NCBI GenBank assembly: GCA_001800285.1
Contig: MGVC01000039.1
Location: 1 to 46,733 of the forward strand
Length of the DNA: 46,733 nucleotides
Source of the DNA: Elusimicrobia bacterium RIFOXYA2_FULL_39_19
GTDB taxonomy: Bacteria > Elusimicrobiota > Endomicrobiia > CG1-02-37-114 > XYA2-FULL-39-19
Direction: 5' to 3'
This document shows positions 41,404 through 45,960 of this stretch, piece after piece. Below the pieces are notes generated by a model. The model worked only from the letters and a program-made list of their open reading frames with translations, searched no databases and was not told the origin of the DNA. A program made the position numbers and the translations under genes. How positions within the stretch are numbered: the stretch's first letter is position 1; the number at the start of each line of letters is the position of its first letter.

Positions 41404-42645
41404 TCAGTCCGGAATCATTTCTGTTTTTAGTGCCGGGTCCTGAACTACAGTTGGCAATCCGATTTTATTAAGAAGTTCAATAAACGGGTCCGGATCTAAT
41501 TCTTCAACATTTACCATGGTTTTTGCATCCCATTTACCCTGAGCTATTAATATGGCAGCCGCTACGGCGGGCACGCCTGCAGTATAGCAGATAGCCTGTG
41601 ATTCCATCTCTTTGAAGCATTCTGCGTGGTCACAGTTATTATAAATGAACACCGTTTTCTCTTTTCCGTCTTTCTTTCCTTTAATAAGGTCGCCAATGCA
41701 TGTTTTACCTGTATAGTTTGGCGCCAGGGAAAGCGGGTCCGGAAGCACTGCTTTTAATACTTTTAACGGCACTACTTCTACTCCTTCTGCTGTTACTACA
41801 GGTTTTTCAGAGGTCATACCTACATTTGTCAGTACGTTAAACACGTTTATGTAATGATCTCCAAAGCCCATCCAGAAGCGGACAGAGTTAGCGTCAATGT
41901 TTTTGTACAGAGAATGAAGTTCATCATGGCCGGTCAGGTAAATGGGCAGTTTTCCTACAACTGGAAAGTCATAGAACCTTTTTACTCCGTGTACTTTTTC
42001 TTCTATCCATTTTCTATCAACGTAGGTCCATACTTTGGTGAATTCCCTGAAGTTTATTTCCGGGTCAAAGTTTGTGGCAAAATATTTACCGTGATTTCCC
42101 GCATTTACATCCATTATGTCAATGGTATCAATGGTATCAAAAAGATGTTTTACAGCATAAGCGGCATAAGCGTTTACTACACCCGGGTCAAACCCGGTGC
42201 CTAAAATAGCGGTAACACCTTTTTCTTTACAGCGGTCTTTGCGTTTCCATTCGTAGTTGCCGTACCATGGCGGGTCTTCACACACTTTGTCCGGTTCTTC
42301 GTGAATGGCGGTGTCCATATAGGCAGCGCCGGATTGTATACAGGCCTCAAGCACGGACATATTGATGTAAGCTGTGCCCAGATTTATAACTATCTGTGAG
42401 CCGGTTTCTTTTATCAGTTTTACTGTTGAAGGCACGTCCATGGCATTAAGCTGGCGTGAGTAAAGCTTTTTTGTTTTGTCTTTAAGGTTGTTTTTTCTTT
42501 TTATGCTTTCAATAATTGCATCACATTTGCTGATTTTTCTTGAAGCAATGCAGATATCGCCTAAAATGTCATTATGCATGGCACATTTGTGCGCCACTAC
42601 GTGTGCTACACCGCCTGCCCCTACGATAAGAATGTTTTTTTTCAT
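41404..42645 (-). CDS. Carboxynorspermidine/carboxyspermidine dehydrogenase (saccharopine-dehydrogenase fold)
   Basis: The enzyme condenses aspartate semialdehyde with a diamine and reduces the product to carboxy(nor)spermidine. The Rossmann start is ILIVGAGGVAHVVAHKCA; ILGTGFDPGVVNAYAAYA is the family signature that separates it from lysine-pathway saccharopine dehydrogenases, with VNAGNHGKYFATNFDPEINFREF after it. 413 residues. It follows nspC by 12 bases, the classic pair. With putrescine it would make spermidine; with diaminopropane, norspermidine. Confidence 0.92.
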   Translation of the reverse strand: MKKNILIVGAGGVAHVVAHKCAMHNDILGDICIASRKISKCDAIIESIKRKNNLKDKTKKLYSRQLNAMDVPSTVKLIKETGSQIVINLGTAYINMSVLEACIQSGAAYMDTAIHEEPDKVCEDPPWYGNYEWKRKDRCKEKGVTAILGTGFDPGVVNAYAAYAVKHLFDTIDTIDIMDVNAGNHGKYFATNFDPEINFREFTKVWTYVDRKWIEEKVHGVKRFYDFPVVGKLPIYLTGHDELHSLYKNIDANSVRFWMGFGDHYINVFNVLTNVGMTSEKPVVTAEGVEVVPLKVLKAVLPDPLSLAPNYTGKTCIGDLIKGKKDGKEKTVFIYNNCDHAECFKEMESQAICYTAGVPAVAAAILIAQGKWDAKTMVNVEELDPDPFIELLNKIGLPTVVQDPALKTEMIPD

Positions 42646-42657
42646 TAATTTAGCCTC

Positions 42658-43761
42658 CTAAGATAAATTGTTTATGAAATCTTTATATTCAAAATAACGG
42701 ACTAAATCTGTTTTACCGTTAAGCCTTTTTACTGCAATAGATGGCATGGGCAGTCCGTTAAACCAGTTCTTTTTTACCATAGAATAGCCGGCGGCATCTG
42801 AAATTTTTATAATACTACCGGGTTTTAAGCGTGTATTAAAATTATAAGTGCCGAAAATATCTCCCGCCAGGCAGGATCTGCCGGCAATGGTGTATTTACA
42901 TTTTCCTTTTCCGGATTTTTCTATTTTAGCGGGTGTCTGGTAAATAAGCAGGTCAAGCATATGTGCTTCTGTAGAAGCATCTACTATGGCTATGTCTGCC
43001 TGATTACGCACTATGTCTAATACCGTGGTTACCAGTTCAGCAGATTGCGTGATTGCAGATTCCCCGGGCTCCAGATATATTTGCAGGCCGTATTGAGTGC
43101 TGAAGTTTTTAAGTTTTTTGCAGAAAGCTTCTAATGGGTAACCGTCTTTTGTGAAATAAAGGCCGCCGCCTAAGCTTATCCAGTCAAGTTTTTTTAATAT
43201 AGCGCCATAGTTTCTTCCGATGGTATCTAAAGCATTAGAAAAGTTGGTGAAGTCATCATTTTCACAGTTAAAGTGGAACATCAGACCTTTTATTAAAGGA
43301 AGAGCTTTTAATAATTCTTTTTTATCTGTTACACCCAGGCGTGAATGTTTTCTGGCGGGGTCTGCCAGCGTAAAGTGTGAATAGCTGATGCCCGGGTTTA
43401 CACGCAAACCAAGGTTAATACCATTTACTTCCTTATAATAGGCGTTAAGCTGAGATGTGGAGTTAAAAATGATTTTATTTGCGAAGGTTTTGATTTGCGA
43501 TATGTCATTTTTTGAAAAAGCTACACTGTAGGCGTGGACTTCTTTTCCGAATTTTTCATGGCCCAGGCGTGCTTCATACAGAGAACTGGACGTGGTTCCG
43601 TCCATGTACTGCTTCATTAAATCAAAAACACACCACGTAGAAAAGCATTTCAAGGCTAAAACTGACTTTGCGCCGGAAATGTCACGGATGTGTTTAATTT
43701 TTTCCAGATTATTTAATAATCTATTTTCGTGAATTAAATAATATGGTGTTGTTAAAGCCAT
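42658..43761 (-). CDS. nspC: Carboxynorspermidine decarboxylase
   Basis: A PLP enzyme of the alanine-racemase-fold decarboxylases that removes the carboxyl group from carboxy(nor)spermidine. The PLP lysine is in VLALKCFSTWCVFD. GLRVNPGISYSHF, DWISLGGGLYFTKDGYPLEAF and YLEPGESAIT are family marks, and AGRSCLAGDIFG near the C-terminus holds the second-subunit catalytic Cys. 367 residues. It is first in the unit with the dehydrogenase. The mRNA leader can fold over its start codon. Confidence 0.93.
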   Translation of the reverse strand: MALTTPYYLIHENRLLNNLEKIKHIRDISGAKSVLALKCFSTWCVFDLMKQYMDGTTSSSLYEARLGHEKFGKEVHAYSVAFSKNDISQIKTFANKIIFNSTSQLNAYYKEVNGINLGLRVNPGISYSHFTLADPARKHSRLGVTDKKELLKALPLIKGLMFHFNCENDDFTNFSNALDTIGRNYGAILKKLDWISLGGGLYFTKDGYPLEAFCKKLKNFSTQYGLQIYLEPGESAITQSAELVTTVLDIVRNQADIAIVDASTEAHMLDLLIYQTPAKIEKSGKGKCKYTIAGRSCLAGDIFGTYNFNTRLKPGSIIKISDAAGYSMVKKNWFNGLPMPSIAVKRLNGKTDLVRYFEYKDFINNLS

Positions 43762-43825
43762 AATTCATTTGTCCTTAATAAATTTTTTATAAGTCCGTAT
43801 GAAAAAAAAACAAAATGAATTATGG
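43758..43825 (-). promoter_or_regulatory. Hairpin that can sequester the nspC start codon
   Basis: CCATAATTCATTT (minus strand, complement of 43813-43825) is an exact 13-base partner of AAATGAATTATGG (43758-43770), which contains the nspC ATG. The AAGGA ribosome site lies at the edge of the roughly 42-base loop. Both arms are within the predicted leader. This is the geometry of a translational switch or thermosensor. What would open it is unknown. Confidence 0.6.
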
Positions 43826-43845
43826 AAAAAATACAATTTATAAAT

Positions 43846-43874
43846 TTTATATCATAAAATTACATAAAAATCAA
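43846..43874 (-). promoter_or_regulatory. Promoter of nspC and the dehydrogenase
   Basis: TTGATT (43869-43874), 17 bases and TATAAA (43846-43851) on the minus strand. The predicted start near 43839 gives a leader of about 78 bases that contains the whole start-codon hairpin. In the rest of the 258-base gap, up to the barrel-protein stop at 44020, nothing recognisable is seen. Confidence 0.6.
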
Positions 43875-44019
43875 TTTTTTTATAAATAAGTATTGCAGGA
43901 ATTGGGTTTTCAGGAAAGGACGAGTACCGACGATGAATGGTTTTATAGTAAATGGTGCAGAAAATAATTATGAAAAAATAATATTTTAAAGAAAAACAAT
44001 GTAAAATAATTTGCTGTTT

Positions 44020-45960
44020 TTAGAAATCTATTATAAATCTTGTTAGAACGCCTTTTTCTAAATTTGAATCATAACCCCAAGTGCTTGAATTATAGGAATC
44101 ACTTAGTTCATAGATTGTACCTATAACCCATGTAAGGTTTTTCTTGATTTTAAAACTGCATTCAAGATCTGAGTTCATACCGGTGAAATCTATTTTTTCA
44201 ATTACAAGGTCAGTATTGTTTTTTTGTATGGTGTAATAAGTCCATAACTGTACGTTAAAAAAATCAGGTATTGCCTTAAAAAGGATGCTTGCGCTGTAGT
44301 ACTGGGTAAAGGTGGTATATTTTTTTACCGTGTTTTCCGCATTTACCAGGTTTATACCCGTATTTAGGTTTAATCTGGTGCTTATAGGTTTAAAAATTGT
44401 AAAACCGGTTTTTAATGTTCTTATATCGTCGGAGAGTTTCATCTTATCGGTATAATCTATTTTCTGGAAAGTTGCGCTCCAGTTCAGTTTTTCTCTTGTG
44501 TTTGAAAAACCTATGGAAAAAGTATTTGTATAGTTGTCCTGCCGGGTGCGGTCCTGTGCAAAAGCTTCATTAAAGGAATAACCCAGAGTGATTATCTTCG
44601 CATCAGTGCTTAATTTGTAGTCAAAACGTGTGTCGTAGGTTTTCTGGGTTATAGTCAGCTTAGAAATGTCTTTACTGAGGTTATCTATCCATTGGTTGTA
44701 CCCAAGCCGGGAAACAAGTTTCTGTGAAGTGTCAATATTTGTTCTTATATCAAATGTTCTTCTGTCGTTTTTAATAAAAGGAGAACCGTAGGAATAAAAG
44801 TTGGGCCTGGTTTCCATGACAAAAACACTTGTTTTAATTTTTTCAATACTATGGTTTGCACCCAAACGAATGCCATAATCATTTACCATTGTACCGGTAG
44901 ACATGAAATCTGTATCAAAATTCTGGTCGCAATACATGGCTTCTGCTTCAAATTCCCACTCTTTAAGCAGTTTATAATTTCCGGTTAAGCCATAAACCGT
45001 GTTTCTTGTAGGAGATATAGTCTGTGTTGAAACTTTTATTATGGTGTCTTTTTTATCAAAACAGGAGACATAGTTAAGCCCCAGTGTAACTTTTGGCGAG
45101 ACAATGTGTTGAATTTTTCCCGCGCCCATCCACCTTTCATATACAGAAGTGATGCCTGATTCCTGTGGTGGTTGCTCAGTCCTGGAAAGCAGAAATTCAG
45201 TTGAAGTTTTGCTGAATGTGTTTTGAAGGTAGATCCCCTGTATGCTTAGTTTATAGAGGGCAAGCTTGGAAAAGTCAGGCAGTATGTCTCCTACCTGAAG
45301 GGCATAATTTTCTCCGATTTTACTGTAAAGAAAACTGAATATTTCGTTTTTCAGTTCAAAAGCGTTGGATGATTTTGAGGTGTGATATGTGTTTAAAAAA
45401 AGCTGTGTCGGATTTTTGGAGTTGTAAGTAATACCGTCAACATTAAGTCCACCGGACAGGTTGTTCCAATTGTTTTTGTCAGTATTTTTCAGCGAAACGT
45501 TAAACCTGCCGCCAAATTTTTCCCATAGCGGTTTTTCAATCTTTGATGCAACCGCAATAACCCTGAAACTAAAAAGTTCTGACTCAACTGCATGCTGATT
45601 ATTTACAATAATTACTATTTTGTAAAAATAATCCCCATTGTAACTTGCGGGAATAAGAATTTCTGTATTTATATCTGTTATTGATCCAGGCAGGATATCA
45701 GACTGATTTGATTTGGGCTGAACCTTACCAATATATTTTCTCTCACTATTATAAATTTCTATTTGGATATGATATTTTGTTTTTTCCCAAAGCTGTGTGC
45801 TCTGGTTTAAAACTGTTGTTCTCAAAATAATGTGTTCCCCTGCATTTACCGGGTTAGGTGTGGGGTAGGATAATTGAACGCTTCCTTCCGGCTGGGCTGT
45901 TAAAACAGCCTGAGCAAAGACCAAAATTGCAAGAAACAGAAGGTTTTTAGCGTTTTGCAT
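44020..45960 (-). CDS. Outer-membrane beta-barrel protein with N-terminal Ig-like domain
   Basis: A signal peptide of about 21 residues (LFLAILVFAQAVLTA) is followed by a beta-sandwich-like domain (about 25-135: NPVNAGEHIILRTTVLNQS...YNGDYFYKIVIIVNN). The remaining 500 residues alternate polar and aromatic/hydrophobic residues, as barrel strands do, and the protein ends ITRFIIDF with the terminal Phe used by the barrel assembly machinery. I do not recognise a named family. It stands alone with a strong promoter placed so that its mRNA would be leaderless. Confidence 0.75.
   Translation of the reverse strand: MQNAKNLLFLAILVFAQAVLTAQPEGSVQLSYPTPNPVNAGEHIILRTTVLNQSTQLWEKTKYHIQIEIYNSERKYIGKVQPKSNQSDILPGSITDINTEILIPASYNGDYFYKIVIIVNNQHAVESELFSFRVIAVASKIEKPLWEKFGGRFNVSLKNTDKNNWNNLSGGLNVDGITYNSKNPTQLFLNTYHTSKSSNAFELKNEIFSFLYSKIGENYALQVGDILPDFSKLALYKLSIQGIYLQNTFSKTSTEFLLSRTEQPPQESGITSVYERWMGAGKIQHIVSPKVTLGLNYVSCFDKKDTIIKVSTQTISPTRNTVYGLTGNYKLLKEWEFEAEAMYCDQNFDTDFMSTGTMVNDYGIRLGANHSIEKIKTSVFVMETRPNFYSYGSPFIKNDRRTFDIRTNIDTSQKLVSRLGYNQWIDNLSKDISKLTITQKTYDTRFDYKLSTDAKIITLGYSFNEAFAQDRTRQDNYTNTFSIGFSNTREKLNWSATFQKIDYTDKMKLSDDIRTLKTGFTIFKPISTRLNLNTGINLVNAENTVKKYTTFTQYYSASILFKAIPDFFNVQLWTYYTIQKNNTDLVIEKIDFTGMNSDLECSFKIKKNLTWVIGTIYELSDSYNSSTWGYDSNLEKGVLTRFIIDF

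Follow-up and report, generated by a model that had tools for sequence, protein, structure and literature searches.

A candidate start-codon-closing hairpin in the nspC leader of one elusimicrobial family

The window (the whole stretch of DNA analysed, 46,733 nucleotides of contig MGVC01000039.1 from the uncultured Elusimicrobia bacterium RIFOXYA2_FULL_39_19) carries on its minus strand a gene for carboxynorspermidine decarboxylase, nspC, followed by a dehydrogenase gene. The nspC product scores 411 bits against TIGR01047 (just above the cut-off of 409), and relatives of NspC with 63-77% identity occur in 50 of 59 other class members sampled; the nearest named relatives by sequence are Elusimicrobia and Omnitrophota MAGs. 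Since only 12 nt separate nspC from the dehydrogenase gene, the two probably form one operon, and the same gene order is found in a genome of the same family (L003). The features on which the analysis rests, all on the minus strand, are the following:

41404-42645, minus strand: carboxynorspermidine synthase-like dehydrogenase, the next gene after nspC (NF043000, 507 bits, under the cut-off of 800)
42658-43761, minus strand: nspC, carboxynorspermidine decarboxylase, 367 aa (open reading frame, ATG at 43761)
43758-43770, minus strand: 3' arm AAATGAATTATGG, which includes the nspC ATG (repeat search and predicted fold)
43772-43776, minus strand: Shine-Dalgarno sequence AAGGA, 10 nt before the ATG (from sequence; predicted to be paired)
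43786-43813, minus strand: weaker promoter-like TTGTTT-N16-TATAAA within the loop (from sequence)
43802-43812, minus strand: TG-U9 tract TGTTTTTTTTT, which in the predicted fold pairs in part with the Shine-Dalgarno sequence
43813-43825, minus strand: 5' arm CCATAATTCATTT (repeat search and predicted fold)
43846-43874, minus strand: promoter-like TTGATT-N17-TATAAA (from sequence)

The repeat search bore out the perfect 13-bp inverted repeat described in the initial annotation: the arms CCATAATTCATTT (43825-43813) and AAATGAATTATGG (43770-43758) are 13 nt long, 100% complementary and 42 nt apart. The 46.7 kb window contains three perfect repeats of at least 13 nt with no more than 80 nt between the arms; of these, that at the nspC start alone has a long loop. 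Throughout the 3.09 Mb assembly, exact copies of the 13-mer are confined to the two arms. When one mismatch is allowed, 12 copies (both arms included) are found genome-wide, against 9 for a reversed-pattern control; such near-copies thus stand at control level and indicate no regulon. A second hairpin lies within nspC itself (43704-43746, minus strand, codons about 6 to 20; CCATATTATTTAAT...ATTAAATAATCTGG, 14 nt arms, 93% complementary). As it is nearly the same in L003 and broken in L005 (the G001 nspC sequence introduced below), it is probably an incidental product of the coding sequence. We also noticed a G+C-rich island, GGACGAGTACCGACGATGAATGG (43918-43940), in the A+T-rich stretch that separates nspC from the upstream gene; the island has one exact copy in the genome and two three-mismatch copies on contig 29.

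In the predicted fold (-18.3 to -18.4 kcal/mol; z = -2.85 against dinucleotide shuffles) the leader holds both the Shine-Dalgarno sequence and the start codon in a stable helix, with pairing probabilities near 1. The two parts of the structure, the start-codon helix and the Shine-Dalgarno helix, are separated by one bulged U. The ribosome site had been described as left free at the edge of the loop, which understates the closure: AAGGA (unpaired probability 0 to 0.2) is predicted to pair with part of the U-tract downstream of the 5' arm, and the site is thus closed. Opening positions -18 to +3 would cost 14.7 kcal/mol, compared with a mean of 5.4, placing nspC at rank 4 of 219 sampled genes of the same genome (a background set whose gene starts were called by a simple rule). 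A background of raw energies was discarded because miscalled ORFs and strong G+C pairing dominated it; shuffles with the start site kept fixed took its place. Measured in this way (start region fixed, leader shuffled), the leader-to-start-region duplex energy has z = -4.5 and p = 0.0013.

How far chance could produce such a structure is a question that the composition of the leader raises by itself, for 85% A+T sequence readily yields long A-T repeats and a scan of 46 kb picks the best of them. Repeats of 8 bp overlapping the ATG arise in 4% of leader shuffles, in line with such an origin, but the 13-bp repeat overlapping the ATG of the window was matched in just 4 of 12,000 shuffles (46 of 12,000 when it could lie anywhere). 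The composition of the arms had been put forward as a further argument against chance, on the grounds that they consist of coding and leader sequence; this argument carries little weight, because the coding part amounts to four bases (ATGG).

The leaders of related nspC genes were compared in a set that holds three genomes of the window genome's family and five of its order. G001 (sequences L005 and L157) is of the same family and another genus, and G002 (L003) is of the genus of G001. The NspC of G001 is 74% identical to that of the window, and alignment of the leaders (z = 4.6) shows them to be homologous. The G001 leader, with a predicted fold of -17.8 against -18.3 kcal/mol for the window, closes its start codon by ATAATTCA/TGAATTAT and its Shine-Dalgarno sequence by CUUUUGC(U)/(G)GCAAAGG. 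Its duplex energy has a p-value of about 0.009 and its opening cost one of about 0.01 (from four runs of 750 shuffles); in opening cost, nspC comes third among 173 genes of the G001 genome. Opening z-scores show no correlation (rho = 0.06) across 52 pairs of orthologues from the window's genome (G000) and G001, and the nspC pair alone is closed (z above 2) in both genomes, which argues against chance. The claim of start-codon sequestration is thereby supported, the fold being stronger than expected and the homologous G001 leader closing the same codon.

The conservation looked for in relatives was therefore found in G001, but it is absent from G002 and from distant relatives. Homology between the window and G002 leaders is undetectable (alignment z = 0.9), and G002 has no upstream arm (leader-start duplex -7.3, p = 0.84). 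None of 37 other, more distant nspC leaders (a few of these sequences are duplicated across two collections) has a comparable fold. Among about 40 nspC leaders, then, only those of the window and L005 stand out. The pairing of L006 (p = 0.02 by duplex energy) was set aside, for its opening cost gave p = 0.76; L079 (p = 0.015) and L063 (p = 0.05), both picked out by opening cost, are at the level that chance would give in about 40 tests. As judged from these sequences, the hairpin belongs to a single family, one of whose three genomes lacks it. Compensatory changes, which had been proposed as the check on pairing, did not appear in clean form, since the start-codon helix is identical in the window and G001 (in part by descent); the Shine-Dalgarno helices of the two differ in sequence and in register.

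These comparisons bear on chance from the other side as well: the G001 pairing is partly shared ancestral sequence, its p of just about 0.01 becomes about 0.02 once the two family members tested are counted, and the fold is missing from G002 and the distant relatives. Weighing these points against the shuffles and the orthologue pairs, we regard chance as a substantial possibility that nevertheless falls short of probable. The relatives also inform on whether the arms could be a DNA-level operator pair for a regulator. Inverted copies downstream of a promoter would suit such an operator, but only two exact copies exist in the genome, the spacing in G001 is quite different (with 8 bp left), and pairing of the Shine-Dalgarno sequence, predicted in both genomes, would be meaningless for an operator; we find this reading barely conceivable.

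Several other features of the nspC leaders were recorded in passing. An overlapping out-of-frame ATG (ATGARTTATG, 43759-43768, minus strand) is kept in the window, L003 and L005, even where the hairpin is lacking, and the idea of a short upstream ORF beginning at this ATG (43768) was set aside, with the Shine-Dalgarno sequence just 3 nt away. L031 (RIFOXYD2_FULL_34_15) has, within the last 60 nt before nspC, a different, G+C-rich structured leader that lies between promoter and ATG (ATCCG ... GTTCGCC-AGTC-GGCGAAT ... CGGAT), and L037 has almost the same promoter as L031 and a short leader. A common promoter, TTGACA ... AAAGTATATTTTATARACTTA, lies about 35-50 nt before nspC in L011, L012, L015, L018 and L059, the leaders of which have no hairpin over the start.

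Whether the 5' arm is transcribed depends on the promoter in use. RNA from the promoter-like site at 43874-43846 would be expected to start near 43839 and to carry both arms. This site falls below the rule of the promoter scan in the window, its last base being A; the same arrangement, TTGATT-N17-TAAAAT, occurs in G001 (L157, 1700-1672), where only 148 bp separate nspC from a divergent gene that its sequence marks as peptidase U32-like, and the pairing arm sits just downstream of the promoter-like site in this gap. The shared arrangement supports a start near 43839, short of proof. The site in the loop, if used, would give a transcript without the 5' arm, and this opens the way to an explanation by promoter choice: a loop promoter would yield a short, open and translated mRNA and the distal one a long, self-repressed mRNA, so that the hairpin would matter for the long form only. 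Such a choice would be consistent with the promoter-like site at 43813-43786, with the drop in predicted opening cost that loss of the arm brings (from 15.3 to 5.6 kcal/mol at 37 °C), and with G002, in which inspection by eye placed TTGATT-N17-TAATAT close to the ATG, where it would give an armless leader of about 20 nt. The loop site, however, matches just 8 of 12 consensus bases, sites of this kind are expected by chance in A+T-rich DNA (2.8 expected, 1 found), and the G001 loop is without any site matching 9 of 12; we consider promoter choice unlikely.

NspC makes (nor)spermidine, and the hairpin had been proposed to report polyamine level or temperature; in such a switch, polyamines or cooling would make the helix more stable and turn off nspC. 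This proposal is unsupported, and we judge a metabolite or temperature switch highly unlikely. No noteworthy Rfam match appeared at any threshold: the search at the gathering threshold over the window gave nothing relevant, and a search of 43550-44050 with E up to 5 gave no leader match and no SAM-I, as which spermidine-type SAM-I variants are expected to register. A conserved non-helical core is likewise lacking. Predicted start-site pairing varies little between 10 and 55 °C: the mean unpaired probability is 0.08 at 20-45 °C and 0.11 at 55 °C, while the opening cost falls from 23 kcal/mol at 10 °C to 9.4 kcal/mol at 55 °C. The leader resembles RNA thermometers (ROSE-like, fourU) in that a hairpin closes the ribosome site and a U-tract faces AAGGA, but it differs from them in being predicted to remain shut at 55 °C at that cost, with no melting predicted in the physiological range, and in having no match to an Rfam thermometer family.

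Known polyamine-responsive RNAs offer partial parallels, and speak for the switch. Spermidine is reported to alter the translation of some E. coli genes via structured initiation regions with bulged hairpins (PMC7177335), and the nspC leader shares with these polyamine modulon mRNAs a structured initiation region and a Shine-Dalgarno sequence whose distance from the AUG, 10 nt, is on the long side; stimulation in the modulon proceeds via a bulged helix region, whereas the start-codon helix of nspC consists of 13 perfect pairs. Gram-positive bacteria possess a class of spermidine riboswitch, a SAM-I variant that also sits in the leader of a polyamine gene and acts through termination by means of a four-stem aptamer (PMC10853860). 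The nspC leader has neither a SAM-I-like four-stem aptamer nor an aptamer-controlled terminator, and no terminator-like site occurs in 43740-44060. Without an Rfam family or a visible aptamer, and with a predicted fold that stays shut to 55 °C, polyamine or temperature sensing finds no support. It is possible that polyamines stabilise the helix in a generic manner, rather than one specific to the leader sequence. That a lineage-specific leader of the carboxynorspermidine operon tunes NspC translation to polyamine level via an AU-rich start-site helix, with no classical aptamer, seems to us very unlikely.

The repeat, its excess over chance, and the homologous G001 leader with its equivalent predicted fold are what we observed; from these we infer that the hairpin folds in the cell, represses translation and is opened by some factor. 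Given a similar fold in one related genus, we reason that it is probably an ordinary translation brake, and to the fuller reading, a cis-acting, lineage-specific and translation-repressing hairpin in the nspC 5' leader, we assign an even chance. The fold is carried by two sequences (the window and G001), and both chance and the loop promoter rank as serious rivals. Under the translation-brake reading, the transcript would begin near 43839 and the 5' arm would be made first; once transcribed, the ribosome site would see its Shine-Dalgarno sequence and start codon drawn into a long AU-rich helix that closes off a loop of some 30-42 nt. Until the helix opens, nspC would be translated at a low level, and so, by coupling, would the next polyamine gene. 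Possible openers include ribosomal protein S1, working from the unpaired stretch of the loop, a helicase and a trans factor.

Hairpins that conceal the ribosome site are a well-known mechanism, and the gain in understanding thus stays modest unless the leader can be tied to a specific signal. Like other leader hairpins that sequester the ribosome site (e.g., the standby-dependent tisB mRNA, PMC7708055), the putative brake places the Shine-Dalgarno sequence and start codon in a helix close to unpaired mRNA; unlike tisB-type leaders, it belongs to an unrelated gene, lineage and sequence, and is known from sequence and prediction. A full-text literature search found no paper on the carboxynorspermidine pathway that mentions a leader. 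If true, the translation-brake reading would mean that the carboxynorspermidine pathway is under post-transcriptional control in a poorly studied phylum.
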